Source of the DNA: Nannochloris sp. 'desiccata'
Taxonomy: Eukaryota; Chlorophyta; Trebouxiophyceae; Chlorellales; Chlorellaceae
Direction of reading: 5' to 3'
NCBI GenBank assembly: GCA_019044685.2
Contig: JAGTXX020000006.1
Span: forward strand, 2,127,501 to 2,191,500
Length of the DNA stretch: 64,000 nucleotides
Part shown: piece by piece, positions 10,224 through 64,000 of the stretch
How the letters are laid out: each line of letters starts with the position of its first letter
How positions within the stretch are numbered: position 1 is the first letter of the stretch
Position numbers and translations under genes: made by a program
The notes under the pieces: generated by a model
Database searches by the model: none
Seen by the model: only the letters and a program-made list of their open reading frames with translations
What the model was told of the DNA's origin: nothing

Positions 10224-11447
10224 CTATAAATGCGTTTCTGAAGGCGTCGCTGCTTTCCCACATACTCGTATATAATCTACTTCCATCTTTTTCGCGCCTA
10301 AACTCAAATCAGCCAACGTTGCTGCTGGGTCGGCATTGGGATAGTTACCGCCCACGGCTAGATTCAAAATAAGATAAAAAGCAGCATCAAACGGTGCATT
10401 CCCTTGCCCAGTTTTAGTATACCACCCTCCAGGTATGCCCATAGAGTTCAATTTCGCTGCTGAATCAGCTTGCATGAATTGTCGATCGTCTATAAACCAT
10501 CGCATCTGCTCATAGTCCCATTCTAATGCGATGGTTTGAAATACATCTACAGGCGCAGGTCCGCCATTACCAGAATACTGTTGTACCTCACCTTCAGCTC
10601 CGTAGAAGAGAGTACCTTGAATGTTAGACATATCGTTGGCAGCCTCAAAAATATCAATCTCGCCACTCGCTGGCCATTTACCGTACCGACCACAGCCAGA
10701 GCAATTGCTTGGAGATTGTTCAGGAAGCATCCAAAATGCAGGCCATAATCCTACACCGCGGGGCAGTTTGACAGAAGCTTCTATTCTGACTGAAGGATAG
10801 TCTTCAGATGGCACAACTGCCAATTTGCCAAATGTTCTAATTCGAGCGCTTGTTGCTCCAGTGGCCTTGATTTCGTCACAGCGCGGTACAGAGCAAGTTT
10901 GTACGCATCCTGAAATATCATCAGTTTTTGTTTTTCCTTCTAGATTGCACCGATATTCGCATTCATTTAAGCATTTTTTATACATCCAATCAGAATTTTC
11001 CCCGCTCTCTCTTTGTGCTTGGATAATTAATTTTCCATCTTGAACATACAGATTTGAAGATCTTTCGGTGTAGTATTGAAGCTCGTCGTTCCCCCAACCA
11101 GGTATACCGTACTGAGATCCATCACCAGTCTGGTAAGACCATTTGGCGGGGTCGACAGCAGCGCTGGCATAGTCATTGAACTCGTCGCTCCACAACAATT
11201 CCCAATTGACACCGAGACAGGGGCTAAAGCTTGCAATTTTGGCATCCATGAGTTCAATGGTCTGGTTGGGGAGAGTTCGCAAAGTTGTATCCTGCTGTAA
11301 TGATCTATGGTGCCTAGAACTCTCCGATTCTAAAGTAGCTGCTTGTGCCCCTCCTGAAGCAACGTCTGAGGCTGAATCTGGTCTACCTGGTAGCCTCGCT
11401 GCTGATATCGTAGAATGCAGCAGCACTATGATCAGCACCCACTTCAT
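10224..11447 (-). CDS. Secreted GH16 beta-glucanase (laminarinase-like), paralog A
   Basis: A single-exon protein of 407 residues with an N-terminal signal peptide (MKWVLIIVLLHSTISA). The GH16 jelly-roll domain runs from about residue 80 to the C-terminus. The catalytic motif is GEIDIFEAAND, matching the family pattern ExDxxE, where the first Glu is the nucleophile and the last the acid/base. Other family words are LWSDEFND, GWGNDELQYY and GLWPAFWMLPE. GH16 enzymes of this type cut beta-1,3 or mixed beta-glucans. Residues about 160-195 contain a six-cysteine insertion (C-x3-C-x3-C-x13-C-x3-C-x4-C) not usual for GH16. It is the most distal of three tandem paralogs on the same strand. Confidence 0.9.
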   Translation of the reverse strand: MKWVLIIVLLHSTISAARLPGRPDSASDVASGGAQAATLESESSRHHRSLQQDTTLRTLPNQTIELMDAKIASFSPCLGVNWELLWSDEFNDYASAAVDPAKWSYQTGDGSQYGIPGWGNDELQYYTERSSNLYVQDGKLIIQAQRESGENSDWMYKKCLNECEYRCNLEGKTKTDDISGCVQTCSVPRCDEIKATGATSARIRTFGKLAVVPSEDYPSVRIEASVKLPRGVGLWPAFWMLPEQSPSNCSGCGRYGKWPASGEIDIFEAANDMSNIQGTLFYGAEGEVQQYSGNGGPAPVDVFQTIALEWDYEQMRWFIDDRQFMQADSAAKLNSMGIPGGWYTKTGQGNAPFDAAFYLILNLAVGGNYPNADPAATLADLSLGAKKMEVDYIRVCGKAATPSETHL

Positions 11448-19100: not shown

Positions 19101-21016
19101 ATGATGGCGAGTAATGCCCTCACAGTCGCCAAACCTCGAACGCTAGGCTGCATTCATCCACAAGTTGCCTTGGCTCACCAGAACAGCGTGCAGGTTGGGA
19201 TCTTCCGCTGCTCCGAGAAATCGTTACGATCCATAATTCCACATGTGAGAATGCATAGATTTGTTATCCTCTCTTAATGCTCGGGTTTAGTTGATCTTGC
19301 TTGAATTTGTTTTTGTGATCACCAGGCTCGTAAGAAGGATGAACCAGAGACTCCTAGGTAAGATTTTGTAAATATTTCAAGCTTTTGTAACTGTCTATGG
19401 ACTTATTTTAGATTCATTCCTGCATATTCGTTGGCCAAACTAATCCTAAACCACCGCTCTTGGCTTCTTCTTATTTTATTTTCAGGTCCTATGAAGACGT
19501 TTTACAGCAGCGTGAGCAACAGCTTTGGGACCGCCAATATCAGATGATGGATGCAGGAGCAAAGGAAGCTCGTAACAATTACGAAACTCTCCTTAGAGCC
19601 CATGCACAACTTCAATCACAATTCTTGGCAGAACGCGAACTTTGGGCACAGCAAGAGGACGCTTTACGCAAAGAAAATGCAGAATTACGGTCCCAAATTT
19701 TATACACAGCTGCAAAATTAGCTTCATCAGGTCCTCGAATTAGTTCAAGCGTTAGAAATAACGGAATTGATAGCGATGTTGTGGATGGAAGAGCTGCTGC
19801 CGGAGAGCTCCCCGGCCCTGCTGCTCAACCTACCTCTCAACCTTTTGCTGCCCCATCTAGAAGTAGCCAAAGTGATATTTCTGCTGCATTTGAAGCAGCA
19901 TCAGCTGCTGCTGCAGACCAAGAAGTTCCTTCTTGGGCATCGGAAATCGAAGCTGCAATGGAGGCGGTTGACGAAATGGATATCTTAACACAAGACGTAG
20001 ACTATGCTGCTCTGGCTGCTAGAAATAAACAACCACTAACACATACACATCCCTTAGAAAATGGTTCCTCTACTACTACAGCTGCTCCTACCAGCGCAGC
20101 AGCTGCCGCTGAAGATAATACAGAGGGAATATCGGCAGGGGCTTCTCCCACAGGTCCTCCCCCGGACCTTGCCGTCGGCTCTGACGATATTTTCTGGGTA
20201 AATCAGCTCCACACCGCCATGGTCGATGCTGGGTTCTACCCTGGAGATGATGAAATTGATGCTTTCTTCTTTGGAGATTCTACTCTATGTGCCTTGATGA
20301 CTTTCCAAGCGTGTGAGGGTCTCCCAGAAACAGGAGCTGTAGATGAAAATACTTGGAAGGCGCTTCTAGGCCCTGAATTGACGCTAAAACCTTCTAGAGA
20401 TCTTACAGCTGATCAGTCAGCAAACTTACCTGGAATTACTGATGAACAGAATATTACCGACAAAGGGGAAACTGAAAGTAAGCCCTTTGCAGAGTTGTTT
20501 GCTGCCTCATCTGAACAGTCTGTAGGTTCTCATGGAGAAATTGAGTCGGAAACAAACCGAACAATCTTCAGCGAGACTGATATTTATCCAGATGGTCACG
20601 TTGTCCAAGATTCTGTCGAAACAACAGTAACACATGCCGAAACAAAAAGCACAGCGGCACCGCCATTAACCAAATGGCCTTCTTTGATCGATGGGGATGG
20701 TGGTAAGTATGTCCATGCTTTGCATGTTTTGCTTGATAATGCCGGTTATTGTGCTGGAGAAGATGATGTCAGGTGGTGGCAGTACGGCGATAGTACAGTC
20801 ACTGCAGTCAAAACTTTCCAAGCGTGTTCCGGGATCCCCGAAAGTGGTGCTACCTGCGTGCGAACATGGCAAGCATTAATGCCTCCGGGTTCGGTTCCAA
20901 ATGATCTTTTGAGTGTCCAGAGTGGACATAGTGATGATGATGATTTAGCTGAGCCTGGAGAAGGCAGGGTGTGGTTGTTGGGAGAGCAGCGGTGGGAAAT
21001 CATAAAAAAATATTGA
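19101..21016 (+). CDS. pTAC5-like plastid protein with two peptidoglycan-binding-type domains
   Basis: Three exons, 19101-19193, 19326-19357 and 19486-21016, give 551 residues. The N-terminus (MMASNALTVAKPRTLG) looks like a chloroplast transit peptide. Residues about 45-125 are a coiled coil. Two PGBD1-type domains follow, near 285-345 (VNQLHTAMVDAGFYPGDDE ... TFQACEGLPETG) and 455-510 (VHALHVLLDNAGYCAGED ... TFQACSGIPESG). The tail RVWLLGEQRWEI resembles plant pTAC5, a component of plastid transcriptionally active chromosome. Plant pTAC5 has one such domain and a DnaJ-type zinc finger; here the domain is duplicated and I see no zinc finger before the stop. The function is inferred from resemblance only. 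Confidence 0.75.
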
Positions 21017-57614: not shown

Positions 57615-59382
57615 CTACCAACTTCCACCGGCACCACCCCCACCTCCTCCACCCCCACCTCCAAACGACATAGTATTCCCATAAGACCCTCTCATCTCCT
57701 GATGTGCACGCACTGCAGGATCATTCAACTGAAATTCCCGAGCAGACGCCCAATTAAACGTCCCAGTTGACTGAGCTTCATCTCTCCAAGTATCGAGCAC
57801 AGAATCTGTAAGATACGCTGGATAACGAGTTTGCAGCCGCATAAGCCTAAACATAAGCTCAGCTGTAAGCATATCATCCATAAAATTACGTTCTTGACCT
57901 CTCACTCTACCTGCTGCACCTGATTCTTGATTATTTTGAACATTGGCACCCCCATTGTCGTCCTTGTCAACTCTCTCTCTGCAAATAGGACATGTTGGTG
58001 CTCGTTCCATCCAGGTTTCTAAGCAGGATTCGCAGAATGTGTGGCCACAACGCAAAGTAATAGGTTTTTTCAAACTTGCTGAATCTCCACCTCCATTATG
58101 ATGCTTCTGAGAATGAGAACCAGCACTGCCGCTACCGCCCCCGCTTCCTCCTGCAAGAAAATCTTCACTTTTACCTGAATTTCTTCTCCGTAACCCATCA
58201 GACGATACTCCCTTTGACGTTGAAGCTCCACCACTACCTTCATTTCCACCTTCGTTGGGTAATAGAGGGGCTGTGGGGTCCTCTGAAACGTCCAAATCAA
58301 TCGAGCTTGTTCCCGGCATCATCGGAGGAGAAGGTTCAAGACTTCTTGCTAGTGTTCTGGCGTCTTTCATCTTTGCTGCTGATATCCCATTCAAATCATC
58401 AGCCACTGGCGCTGTTGCCGTTTCCTCTACAGATTCAGGGTTAACTGAAAACTCTTCCAAGCATACCGGGCAGGTCCGGGGCTTGGACCACTCTTTTCTT
58501 CTCAATTTATCTTGCTCTTGTTTCACTTTTTCTAAAGCTGTACGGCAATCTCTGTACTGCCTCCGGTCTTTAAACGTTTTCCAAACACTACGAATCATGA
58601 AGAACCCGATAATTCCAAAGAAAAGGACAGGAAACCATTCCCATTGGTCTTTTGAACGAGGGCGGCCAGACAAGCCAAGCCCAAGATCGATGATTGCCTG
58701 CTCAACTGCCTCATCGTAGCTATGAGCTCTTAATTTCGGTCTCATAGATGAGATAATATCACCTAGAGAGTTATCTGAAAGAGCTTTTTGAGCTCCTACG
58801 CCTGTGGAAATGTAGACTTGGCGGTCGTCGACAGCTAAGAGAAAGAGAACCCCATTGTCGCAGGCGGCGAGGCCCACACCCCATTTGGCGTGGAGAGCTT
58901 TGGCGATGCGGTGGGCTGCTTCAGCAGGTTTTTCTCTTTTCTTGACTTCCATATTTTTCATCAATGCTACACCCACCTGCAGTCCCCGGGGGATAAGAGA
59001 ATAAGAGGAGGGTGGAAGAGGGTTAGTTGATTAGTGAGCTAGCTAGCGGGAAAAAAGAAGATTCTGATCAGCTACACGTTATTTTCCAAACGCGTGAGCT
59101 TACCTGGAACCCAGCAACCCCTTGATCTGCGCAAGGTACACGAACATATGGATCGACACCGTCATAGATGTCTTTTATTATCCCTTCGATGCGGTTGGCT
59201 CCTTTGTATGACAGGATGCCATCTGGGTCGCAGATGTTCGACTGCTTTCCTTTGCGGCCACAGAGCTGCGTGTCACGCTTTGGGTCTGGGTAATTTTCTG
59301 GTCCCCATTGCGCTCCTTGAACGGCGGTCGCTGTCCCCAGGAGCAGCAGAGCTACTCCGAGGATGAGATTGATCCCCTTCAT
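57615..59382 (-). CDS. TPM-domain / RING-finger membrane protein
   Basis: Two exons, 59382-59104 and 58976-57615, give 546 residues. A signal peptide (ILGVALLLLGTATAVQG) leads into a TPM domain (about 40-200): DPDGILSYKGANRIEGIIKD, GVALMKNMEV, LFLLAVDDRQVYISTG, LSDNSLGDIISSMRP. TPM domains (TLP18.3/Psb32/MOLO-1) are lumenal or extracellular. One membrane helix follows (FPVLFFGIIGFFMIRSVW, about 215-235). The cytosolic part has a RING: CPVCLEEF, then about 115 residues of Ser/Gly-rich loop, then LRCGHTFCESCLETWMERAP and CPIC. A TPM receptor-like head joined to an E3 ligase-type RING is unusual, and the RING is split by a very long loop. The C-terminus is poly-Gly. Confidence 0.85.
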
Positions 59383-59684: not shown

Positions 59685-61177
59685 TTAAGCAAGCTGCAAT
59701 TCCTTCACCGCTGCTCCATTGCTCGCCATCTTCCCCTTTTTCAAACTCTCAGCCATCCTTCTATGCCCGGGAATCCTCTCCACCAGCCTCTTATACCAAT
59801 TCTTTAACAATGCTGCACTTGCATGTAACTTTCTATCTTGATTACCCTCAGGTACGGGATCCCAATAGTACATGCCAAACTTCATTCTGTACCCAAAGGC
59901 CCATTCAAAATTATCTACAAGTGTCCAATACATAACCCCTCGTAAATCGTACCCAAGTCGTACAGCTTCTTCTATCGCTGACATGTACGACTGAATAAAT
60001 TGAGGCCGGACAGAGTCTCCATCATCAGCTACACCAGTTTCCGTGATGTAAATCGGGACACCAAGTTGAGAGACACCATGAACAGCTAATAAAAGACCCT
60101 CAGCATGCAAAGCATACGGCATATCAGTCATAACTTCCCCAGGATTAGGGCAAGGTTGTAATTTCCAGTCAAATAACCCACGGGAGTAGTAATTGAGGCC
60201 AATGTGGTCGCAGCCAGGAGGACCGCCAGGATTTGTATATTGAACACGGCCAAGACCCCAAAGAGGGTTATAATCATACACGCCAGTTTTTAGATATTTC
60301 ATTACGACTTCATTACCCCACATTTTATTTAAAATAGATGCAACCCAACGGACATAGGGGGGAGTACAGCACGCTTGTTTGGGCTCAAACCAAAACCAAT
60401 TGTGAACTAGACCGATTGATGTTTGATCGCCGCCAGGCATCGCCTTGATTGCTGCATAAACATCGGTATGTGCCCGTAACAGATGGAGAATATGACGACC
60501 ACAGCCTGAAATACGAGCCATTTTACCAGGAGGGAAACTTCCATATACAAAGCCTGCAAAGGATGTCACACCTGGCTCATTGAAGGTAGTCCAAAAACGA
60601 GCACGACTGCCAAATTCTGCAAATGCTGCTTTTGCATAATCTACAAAAATTTTGAGATTTTCTTCTTTAATGAAGCCTCCGAGTTTTTCAAACCATAGAG
60701 GGTGGACAAAATGATGCCATGTAACGAAGGGTTCCATCTTCTTGGCGTCAAGAGCATCAAAGATGGAGTGATAGGCGGCAACCGCTTCAGGATCAAATGG
60801 AGTGCCCGGGCCGTGAGGCTGTAATCTGCTCCATTCTAAAGATAAACGGAAGCAATTACCACCCAAAGAGTGAGCACGTTCGATATCATCCTTGTATAAA
60901 TGCCAGAAATCACAGGCTATGTTGCACCTGTCACCATTATCAATGGTGGAGCGGCCGAGGAGGGTGCGTCTTTTTTCAAATTCGCCCCAATTGGTGTTAT
61001 CGTCGCCGCTGTTTTGATAGACTACAGATCAGAATTTGATTAGTTTGTTTAGTGTGTTTGATGTTTAAAAAATGCTGTGCAAAGTGTGGAGTAGGGGGAT
61101 CATGAAAAAAACAAACCTGAAATGGCGAAACCGACAAAGAAAGGGTCTTCCACATCCTGTTGGGCTACGGAACCCAT
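59685..61177 (-). CDS. GH1 beta-glucosidase
   Basis: Two exons, 61177-61117 and 61021-59685, give 465 residues. The start MGSVAQQDVEDPFFVGFAIS joins VYQNSGDDNTNWGEFEKR, the usual GH1 entrance (SAYQ-xEG). The acid/base Glu is in WTTFNEPGVTS and the nucleophile Glu in IYITETGVADDGD. The C-terminal part has LRGVMYWTLVDNFEWAFGY, which lines the sugar pocket. No signal peptide is present, so it is likely cytosolic. GH1 enzymes release glucose from beta-glucosides. With three nearby GH16 enzymes it could finish beta-glucan breakdown, but this is inference. The last 25 residues are Lys/Arg-rich. Confidence 0.93.
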
Positions 61178-61346
61178 ATTTAACGCTTGATAGATTGCAG
61201 CAAAAGTTTTATTTGAGAGAATGTAAGAGCGTGCAAGTTTTTTATAGAGAGAGCACTTCCGAGAGCCGATGGGAACTCGTCTGACGAAAAGCTAAATCAA
61301 AAAGTTCAAAAATATTGGCGCATTTTGCAATTTTAAATTTTGATAA

Positions 61347-62584
61347 ATGGATAGGTCGCTAGCCACACCGCCAGAAAGGGGAGAAAGTGATGTGAGCCTG
61401 CTGCGATTCTGTAACCAATCTTTGAAAACTCTGCAAGTTATTTGGGTTGACTACGACGGCAGAGAAGTCCAGTATGCTACATTAGAACCTGGAGATAGTT
61501 ATGGTCAAGGTAAGCTAGGGTGCTGTGAATAATGCAGCTTGCGCTTGGAGTACCCAATAGTTTTGAGCCCTGCCCCGCTATATCAATCTTTTGCCCTTTG
61601 TTCTGCTATGCAGCAACGTTTATAACGCATCCTTGGAGAATCAAAGACGGCGATAAAGTGCTTTTACAGTACGCAGGCGACTCTGCTACGCTAATAATAA
61701 ATGAAAAGGGAGATTCTGAGTGCCTCGAGCATCATGCTATTGACACCGCTCCCTCTTCTTCTTCTTCTGCCTACCTTGAAGCGGTCCCTCTAGAAGGTAT
61801 TCCACACCCTATTGACCCAGAAGCATACGGTTATTTCCGTCAATGCGGTCAATGCGCCCAAGGCATCCCAATTTGCGCGTTCGATTGTGTCAGCAATTCC
61901 GCTGTTGAGCACGCTGCGGTTACTTTAAGTCACATGCTGGTAGACGTTGACCGTAGCATAGTCCACCGGATGCTGATTCTAGGAGCTGCGGTCGGCATCA
62001 TAGGAAAATACCAAAATACGACTGATATACCTGCACACAGCCACCTAAAGGGCCAAACAAGTTGTGATGGTCGGGATTTTGACAAAGGTACCCGAGGACT
62101 TGGAGGGAGTATCGCTTGTCCCTGGACAACAGTAGGTGAAGAGAATATCACTATGATAGACGACTCTAGATACCCTTATGAATCTATACTAGTACATGAG
62201 TTTGCGCACTGTGTTATGAATGTGGGGCTCGCAGGGCAGCCAACTCAAAGAAGAATAAAAGCCGCCTATGAGGCGGCGATGGATAAAAATTTGTATGATC
62301 CGAGTAGTTATTTGGCGTCGAATGAAGAGGAATATTGGGCTGAAGCGACTCAAGCGTGGTTTGAGGCTACGGTACGGCTAGATGCAACGAGTAAGATGAT
62401 AACGAGAAAGGCTGTGAAAAAACTAGACCCTGAGCTAGCAGGGATTTTGATCGAGGTTTGGGGAAATGGAGATTGGAGGTACCTAGAAACAGCGCCCGTT
62501 TCGGAATTTAAGCGGGACTCTGGTCATAGTGCTGGTGGTGGTGGGGCAAAGCGGTTTTGGAAGCGGCTTGTGCCTTGTCGATAG
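61347..62584 (+). CDS. VHL-beta domain fused to a zinc metallopeptidase-like domain
   Basis: Two exons, 61347-61509 and 61614-62584, give 377 residues. Residues about 15-90 match the VHL beta domain: LLRFCNQSLKTLQVIWVDYD, GREVQYATLEPGDSYGQATF and THPWRIKDGDKVLL. VHL beta domains read hydroxyproline in animals. Residues about 120-340 are a zincin: ESILVHEFAHCVMNVG holds HExxH and EEYWAEATQAWFE the likely third Glu ligand, as in gluzincin-type enzymes. Cys-rich words (QCGQCAQGIPICAFDC, DGRDFDKGTRGLGG) precede the active site. No signal peptide is seen, so it is probably cytosolic. I know no named protein with this pair of domains. The two GT-AG splice sites keep frame. Confidence 0.85.
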
Positions 62585-62770: not shown

Positions 62771-64000
62771 ATGAAATTAACAAGATTGCCTAACTCAAAT
62801 GTGAAACTTCCAACAAAGATTAATGCTGGAAATTCGCAAAGAAATATCAATAAATTCACTGGTTCTCGCACGAGAGCCATGATCACAAACCAAAGATTCT
62901 CTCGCGCCACTAGAGTTAAAACATCGTCATCGAGTGGGGATAAAGAAACAGAACCTGCTTGGTTTGAAGACCGTGGCAACAGAGGAAATAATGGAGGCAA
63001 TGGAGATGGTGGCGATGATGGATGGGGAGAACTTCCCGAGGATGGAGGTAGCAACGGTGGTGGCTATGGCGGCAATATTGTCGTCCTCCTCGCCGCTGCA
63101 GCAGCTTCAGTTGGTGCTTTCAATCTTTACCAAAAGCGTAAGAAAGGCGATGGCATTCTTGATGGATTACCTCTTCCAGATGAATATGACAGTGACGATG
63201 TACGCACTTTAAAACGTCTATTACGTGACGTTTTCTCCGATCTTGTTAAAGTCCGTAGCCGCTTAGATGAGCTGGAAAGCGCTACTGGTGTTGCTTCTTC
63301 TGACTTCGTTGCTGACGCTACTCCTTTGGAGGCAACCAGCACCAAATCCGGAAACAATAACAACAGCAGCAGATCCTCAGCCTCTCCTGCTGGTGGTGGT
63401 TCTTCTTCTGCTTCTTCCTTCTCATCAACAAGATTACATAGCGCTCTTAGTGGAGCTCTTAAAATCGGAGGTGGCTTACTATGGGATCAAGAAGCATCCT
63501 CTTCTGGTGCCGCCACCACCCCTTCTGTATCTCAAACTGCGCCTGGAGATGGCAGCGGCAGTGGTCTTGGCTTGGACTCGGTGCAAGACGCAGGTGTCCG
63601 TCTAGGGACAGATTTGATTTTACGCGTTGGGGGCCCTGTCCGTGGTGGCAAAGACGCCGTTATGGCTGAAGTACGAATTGATCCTGGTGAAGAACAATTC
63701 GCTTTGCAGAAAATTCTTTACAGTTGCAGAGTCGCTCCGGGTCTTCGGGCTATCCTGGCGCCATTTGGAGCTCGAGGGCAAGATGTAGCTTATACTTTAA
63801 ACCCTCTTGCTGGCCAAGGCTTAACTTCCTCTGTAAAGCATGGAAATCCCTTGCATCAAAAGGTATTAGGCTCTGTTCTTGCAGCTGCAGCTGATTTGAA
63901 AAAAGCCTGGCTCAGTTTGGCGTATTTTTCTTCCAGTGGTGCCGGTGGCGGAGACGTTGATGGCGGTGAAGAAATACAAAATGTAGTGATGGCACAGGCT
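62771..64000 (+). CDS. Plastid-targeted protein of unknown function, cut by window end
   Basis: The frame from the ATG at 62771 stays open for 410 codons to the last base, so the gene continues beyond the window. The first 60 residues (MKLTRLPNSNVKLPTKINAG) are basic and Ser/Thr/Asn-rich, a transit peptide. A Gly/Asn/Asp-rich stretch and one hydrophobic segment (GGNIVVLLAAAAASVGAF) follow. A short coiled coil (VRTLKRLLRDVFSDLVKVRS) and a long Ser-rich linker lead to a folded part with GVRLGTDLILRVGGPVRGGK and FALQKILYSCRVAPGLRAIL, which looks strand-rich. It could be an envelope membrane protein. No family was recognised. Confidence 0.75.
   Translation, partial: MKLTRLPNSNVKLPTKINAGNSQRNINKFTGSRTRAMITNQRFSRATRVKTSSSSGDKETEPAWFEDRGNRGNNGGNGDGGDDGWGELPEDGGSNGGGYGGNIVVLLAAAAASVGAFNLYQKRKKGDGILDGLPLPDEYDSDDVRTLKRLLRDVFSDLVKVRSRLDELESATGVASSDFVADATPLEATSTKSGNNNNSSRSSASPAGGGSSSASSFSSTRLHSALSGALKIGGGLLWDQEASSSGAATTPSVSQTAPGDGSGSGLGLDSVQDAGVRLGTDLILRVGGPVRGGKDAVMAEVRIDPGEEQFALQKILYSCRVAPGLRAILAPFGARGQDVAYTLNPLAGQGLTSSVKHGNPLHQKVLGSVLAAAADLKKAWLSLAYFSSSGAGGGDVDGGEEIQNVVMAQA

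Follow-up and report, generated by a model that had tools for sequence, protein, structure and literature searches.

In animal oxygen sensing, hydroxyproline is read by VHL, which is tied to ubiquitin ligation as the substrate receptor of CRL2; PPEP-1, PPEP-2 and PPEP-3 are Pro-Pro endopeptidases of the ATLF family (PF07737), bacterial enzymes that cleave between two prolines. In a 64,000-nucleotide stretch of the green alga Nannochloris sp. 'desiccata' (contig JAGTXX020000006.1, positions 2,127,501 to 2,191,500), referred to as the window, a gene at 61347-62584 (+) joins the two, placing a VHL beta domain ahead of a PPEP/ATLF-like peptidase domain. We read its product as a candidate intracellular zinc metallopeptidase of the PPEP/ATLF fold whose VHL beta domain would act as a (hydroxy)proline-reading substrate recogniser, and we put the probability of this reading at about 0.5. 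No VHL-peptidase fusion is described in the titles and abstract openings listed by the literature searches, which covered few subscription papers. The main text of PMC11321763, which is indexed for PF01847, holds no passage on that family.

The gene starts with an ATG at 61347, immediately preceded by an in-frame TAA (61344-61346), and its own stop ends at 62584, so that the coordinates given by an earlier reading of the letters alone, referred to as the sequence-only reading, are correct. Absent from that reading was a 104-base, phase-1 GT-AG intron (61510-61613, GTAAGC...TGCAG). Splicing joins exon 1 (61347-61509; the start codon, a short leader and the opening portion of the VHL beta domain, comprising residues 1-54 and the first base of codon 55) to exon 2 (61614-62584; rest of the beta domain, linker, peptidase domain, basic C-terminal tail and stop) in an open frame of 377 amino acids, in which HEFAHCVMNVG and EEYWAEATQAWFE both occur exactly as had been quoted. 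Two observations support the splice: the predicted proteins P0019, P0021 and P0023 are continuous across the junction, and several relatives called as unspliced open reading frames (ORFs) start within the intron, their match beginning at the same residue (A-T-[FY]). The continuity of the relatives' proteins also disfavors two separate genes. When exon 2 was searched against its own genome (21.55 Mb, 18 contigs), the single match was itself.

The core of the VHL beta domain (61407-61654, interrupted by the intron; residues 21-68) matched the Pfam VHL model (PF01847) with an E value of 7e-9 and 36 bits against a curated cut-off of 21, and the best PDB match by sequence was human VHL (E about 8e-4), bearing out the proposal of a well-matched VHL beta domain; the predicted structure likewise has the VHL beta fold. 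An NCBIfam scan of the protein returned nothing up to E 1. Pfam and PDB searches gave no match to the Elongin-binding (BC-box) VHL alpha domain, no search having been dedicated to that motif, and the stretch after the beta domain is modeled as a linker followed by the peptidase, both in relative P0019 and in model m99671a9d20b5 of exon 2 (predicted local distance difference test score, pLDDT, 87.1). According to the available text of PMC9528729 and PMC6650433, the hydroxyproline pocket of human VHL includes Trp88, Tyr98, Ser111, His115 and Trp117. All five have counterparts here, namely W33 (61443-61445), Y43 (61473-61475), T56 (61616-61618, Thr for Ser), H60 (61628-61630) and W62 (61634-61636). 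Eight of 11 non-redundant fusions with VHL first, the window protein included, keep the full pocket, and its columns rank 2, 8, 3, 9 and 4 of 52 for conservation across the 11, a result equaled by random draws at a frequency of 6e-5 (the 11 omit the near-copies P0040 and P0044-P0049 as well as partial rows, among them P0026, P0027 and P0024). The alga has another VHL ORF, on contig C4 (L001, 1174-1722 (-)), with a full pocket and no peptidase within the ORF.

The peptidase domain (61847-62467, about residues 133-339) carries a predicted zinc-binding motif, HEFAH (62195-62209; H249, E250 and H253), followed by Y287 (62309-62311) and E294 (62330-62332), which correspond to Tyr178, the oxyanion residue, and Glu185, the third zinc ligand, in the available text on PPEP-1 (PMC12828418). 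This catalytic set (HExxH, Tyr, Glu) is complete in 93 of 94 aligned rows and sits in a predicted PPEP fold. Structure comparison ranked PPEP-2, PPEP-3 and PPEP-1 as the nearest solved folds, above anthrax lethal factor, whose ATLF domains gave lower Z scores, and no sign of a toxin setting was seen. Fold and catalytic residues thus sharpen the gluzincin-like peptidase proposed in the sequence-only reading to a PPEP/ATLF-type zincin, and a chance motif was rejected on the conserved catalytic set, the fold and the 93 relatives. Compared with PPEP-1, PPEP-2 and PPEP-3, the window protein is only 12-19% identical in structural alignments, is fused to VHL, and scores below the Pfam ATLF cut-off (E 0.0074, 16.5 bits versus 27.4); ATLF was matched at E ≤ 0.01 in 38 of the 94 rows.

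The ranking of solved folds is also what a strict Pro-Pro endopeptidase would give, in which the peptidase itself would select proline-proline bonds and VHL would only add affinity for proline-rich chains. Positions mapped from the sequence alignment fit this alternative in part: Phe or Tyr takes the place of Trp110 in 45 of 53 rows, Ile that of Leu139 in 52, and the first Gly of the GLGG strand is kept in all 53. Against it, Tyr replaces His134 in 44 of 53 rows, the residue at Glu184 varies, and the S-loop of the window protein is shorter and, judged by sequence alignment only, lacks Trp103/Tyr113 and Lys101 of PPEP; a Trp is present in this loop in relatives P0043 and P0050. Since the window protein is without the S-loop Trp and Lys, Pro-Pro specificity is not established, and we consider this alternative improbable.

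A protein search recovered 93 relatives at E ≤ 1e-3, more than expected by chance. Both domains are present in Volvox africanus (P0020) and Gonium pectorale (P0051), placing the fusion in other green algae, as a search of other genomes had been meant to establish, and also in P0023 and P0039 (source codes Picre1 and Mesen1, which we take to be Picochlorum renovo and Mesotaenium). Of VHL, a part is retained in Haematococcus P0026 and nothing in the Dunaliella P0041 record. Metagenomic sources supplied the remaining full-length fusions (P0019, P0021, P0042-P0050, P0056 and others), which is why we name the set for its domain order, as VHL-first fusions, and not as algal. A second search with a 13-row fusion alignment gave 44 matches and no further named fusion. 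Both domains were predicted as confident folds, the structure of the natural full-length relative P0019 reaching a pLDDT of 91.2 and a predicted template modeling score of 0.88.

Hydroxyproline-rich proteins occur in algal walls, and an enzyme that is secreted, or acts at the wall, and processes the hydroxyproline-rich glycoproteins there had been proposed from the letters. In favor of this stand the walls themselves, the extracellular location of PPEPs (PMC12828418, available text), the signal-like N-termini of bacterial relatives, 21 of 36 of which (those among 80 loci that could be parsed by motif) reached a 12-residue mean hydropathy of 2.0, and the longer leaders of P0039 and P0051, which could be targeting peptides. 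Unlike the PPEPs, the window protein shows no signal peptide by hydropathy: the leader ahead of VHL is about 15 residues long, and a stop codon abuts the ATG on its upstream side. Because none of 17 VHL-first N-termini reached the same threshold (range 0.40-1.67, several rows being near-copies), secretion of the algal protein is unlikely, and the link to the wall, which these observations disfavor, seems to us very improbable.

For an intracellular reader, hydroxyproline could be supplied by a TPA1/OGFOD1-type prolyl hydroxylase encoded in the host genome (G000:C11:1615522-1615830, L091 1129-2895; PDB 3kt1, E 4e-77) or by others among 15 host matches to the 2-oxoglutarate oxygenase family PF13640. 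Ofd1 of fission yeast, which dihydroxylates uS12/Rps23, is a regulator of adaptation to hypoxia, according to the available text of PMC5690285; it is an example of intracellular hydroxyproline signaling and not evidence about this alga. A poly-proline DNA pattern run against the alga's own genome was uninformative, the listed matches being largely triplet or single-base repeats and the reversed-pattern control giving the same counts by design.

Extending the scan to bacteria gave at least 549 relatives, the best 80 of which include Acidobacteriota, Bacteroidota, Sphingomonas and kin, Gemmatimonadota and Planctomycetota. A tree of 118 peptidase rows separated 58 rows with all named bacteria from 60 with the algae at 100/100 support (P0052, P0071, P0092 and P0093 were excluded by choice; P0007, P0014, P0015 and P0024 for want of the motif; four of the 36 parsed bacterial ORFs for length; and the 44 of 80 loci unparsed by motif). 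A VHL model built from the VHL-first fusions located VHL on the same peptidase in L084 from a Planctomycetaceae genome (431 amino acids), which has a signal-like N-terminus, then the peptidase, and VHL last. Within its class, 129 of the 397 genomes contain VHL and 290 contain the peptidase. A Pfam scan of 33 VHL ORFs (the 30 best-ranked class loci and three more) found DPPIV_N in 24, Peptidase_S9 in 22 and LRR_4 in four. With 40 further regions, which scored lower and in most cases had ORFs of unusual length, the set grew to 77 VHL ORFs with 78 VHL domains, which models built here assigned to DPPIV (32), PPEP-like (3; L104, L139, L155), both (2; L168, L171), sulfatase (25, by a model resting on one sequence), LRR (8) or no partner (8).

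Pfam confirmed VHL in L104, L139, L155, L168 and L171 (marginally in L171, at 21.1 versus 21), and both DPPIV_N and Peptidase_S9 in L168 and L171. The latter two (L168, 719-4852 (-); L171, 667-4824 (-)) are ORFs of about 1380 amino acids joining VHL, DPPIV/S9 and the PPEP-like peptidase; by eye, a second, degenerate peptidase copy follows the fusion in both. An extra PPEP survey, covering 20 regions with long or unusual ORFs (three repeating earlier loci) and eight class loci, added PPEP-DPPIV/S9 fusions in which the models found no VHL (L186, L187, L189, L190, L193 and L194; Pfam agrees in L186, L193 and L194). In Acidobacteriota, one of 199 genomes has VHL, in a PPEP-VHL fusion (L184, 610-1737 (+)). 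The planctomycete VHL-DPPIV/S9, PPEP-VHL and PPEP-DPPIV proteins (among L103-L204) thus resemble the window protein in having the same VHL domain and partly the same peptidase family; they differ in their signal-like N-termini (by eye, in those inspected) and in carrying VHL at the C-terminus or beside a serine peptidase. What is new here is that planctomycetes join the PPEP-like family to VHL in reverse order, behind signal-like N-termini, and join VHL also to DPPIV/S9 peptidases, in two proteins to both.

Between planctomycete L139 and Volvox P0020, both domains align with their order swapped, and in a VHL tree the bacterial PPEP group requires two or more gain or loss events on branches that have support. 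The difference in domain order, together with the VHL-less planctomycete neighbors of L084, leads us to argue for separate origins of the algal and bacterial fusions. DPPIV-family enzymes often remove X-Pro dipeptides, and planctomycetes may use the VHL-peptidase pair against hydroxyproline-rich proteins.

The state of the pocket varied with the partner. In the sulfatase class (L129, L138, L141, L145-L148, L150-L154, L156-L158, L160-L163, L169 and L174), Ala replaces the pocket His in 21 of 25 domains (motif around TRPGAVW), and in the LRR class (L115, L116, L124, L131, L134, L137, L142 and L165), which has VHL at the C-terminus and forms one supported clade, the His is missing in all eight; Pfam bore out the sulfatase assignment of L129 and the LRR assignment of L115, L116 and L134, the other members being assigned by models only. 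The fold would thus serve other purposes on these proteins, which favors an alternative in which VHL is a general docking module for a non-hydroxylated partner or surface and the peptidase is active with hydroxyproline irrelevant; the altered pockets of some peptidase fusions point the same way. Against it, with VHL-first fusions included and the lone algal VHL and nine domains for which no partner turned up set aside, 53 of the 55 VHL domains joined to a peptidase retain the His versus four of 33 joined to sulfatase or LRR, and 46 of 55 versus none of 33 retain the full pocket, a contrast that relatedness inflates, as it does the Fisher p of 1e-15 from the earlier 78-domain set. A tree of 98 VHL domains built without the His column, with few columns and an unsettled bootstrap, left one supported independent pair (three on the best tree), and a sign test on such pairs cannot reach significance. 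Because a single supported pair remains, we take the link between pocket and partner as a pattern and a lead, not proof, which shared descent could explain; the docking alternative strikes us as possible but unlikely.

Under the reading we prefer, the protein would probably be cytosolic or nuclear, its VHL domain docking on proteins that bear a hydroxylated proline or a proline-rich motif and holding them so that the adjacent putative zinc site could cut nearby. With a peptidase following the beta domain, unlike in human VHL, the protein would act directly, with no ubiquitin step, and proteolysis would be chosen by modification. Such coupling of hydroxyproline recognition to proteolysis is plausible. 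It is a good hypothesis because both domains are confident, the fusion is present in other green algae, and pocket and catalytic residues are conserved, and it is strengthened by the recurrence of VHL-peptidase fusions in planctomycetes.

Several observations weigh against this reading, beginning with the VHL domains on sulfatase and LRR proteins, the lone independent pair and the incomplete S-loop described above. Ile109, also named as a human pocket residue in the available text of PMC6650433, is Gln (Q54) in the window protein, and one or two pocket residues are missing from three of the 11 VHL-first fusions (P0039, with Ser and Gln; P0051, with His for Tyr; P0056, with Asp for His). Pfam called VHL (E ≤ 0.01) in seven of the 94 rows, partly since many rows are without exon 1. 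In the planctomycete proteins L191, L192, L199, L200 and L201, which come from the extra PPEP survey, the models built here placed a weak VHL-like domain before the peptidase with a changed pocket (Tyr to Asn or Ser, Trp to Phe), and Pfam made no VHL call in the two of these tested. The PPEP-like domain of L184 lacks HExxH, and that protein is probably not a peptidase.

Elsewhere in the window, the next gene (62771-64000 (+), open at the window end) shares 38% identity (E 1e-32) with P0023 over the C-terminal part of the latter; from this match, gene order seems common to the window and the alga of P0023, and the public P0023 model probably merges two adjacent genes. On the other side, a GH1 glycosidase (59688-60866 (-)) adjoins the VHL-peptidase gene. 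A domain scan covered 10 of the 39 window ORFs of at least 150 amino acids. Other ORFs include one that combines a TPM (TPM_phosphatase) domain with a RING finger at the C-terminus (57618-58976 (-)), a eukaryotic ORF with a putative peptidoglycan-binding domain (PG_binding_1; 19460-21016 (+)) and a GH16/KRE6-like ORF (10227-11447 (-)).

A wider scheme, which we offer as a tentative and rather doubtful conjecture, is one of ubiquitin-free, hydroxylation-gated proteolysis. The algal VHL-peptidase would cut only proteins marked by a prolyl hydroxylase, and so in dependence on oxygen and 2-oxoglutarate; planctomycetes would use the same reader on secreted endopeptidases and dipeptidyl-peptidases against algal or animal hydroxyproline-rich proteins; and VHL would at root be a reader built on proteases and later recruited to the animal ubiquitin ligase. 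If the reading we prefer is true, this would be a protease chosen by protein modification, and hydroxyproline reading outside animals would become testable with one recombinant protein. An intact pocket on algal and bacterial proteases would then represent an older, more direct use of VHL.
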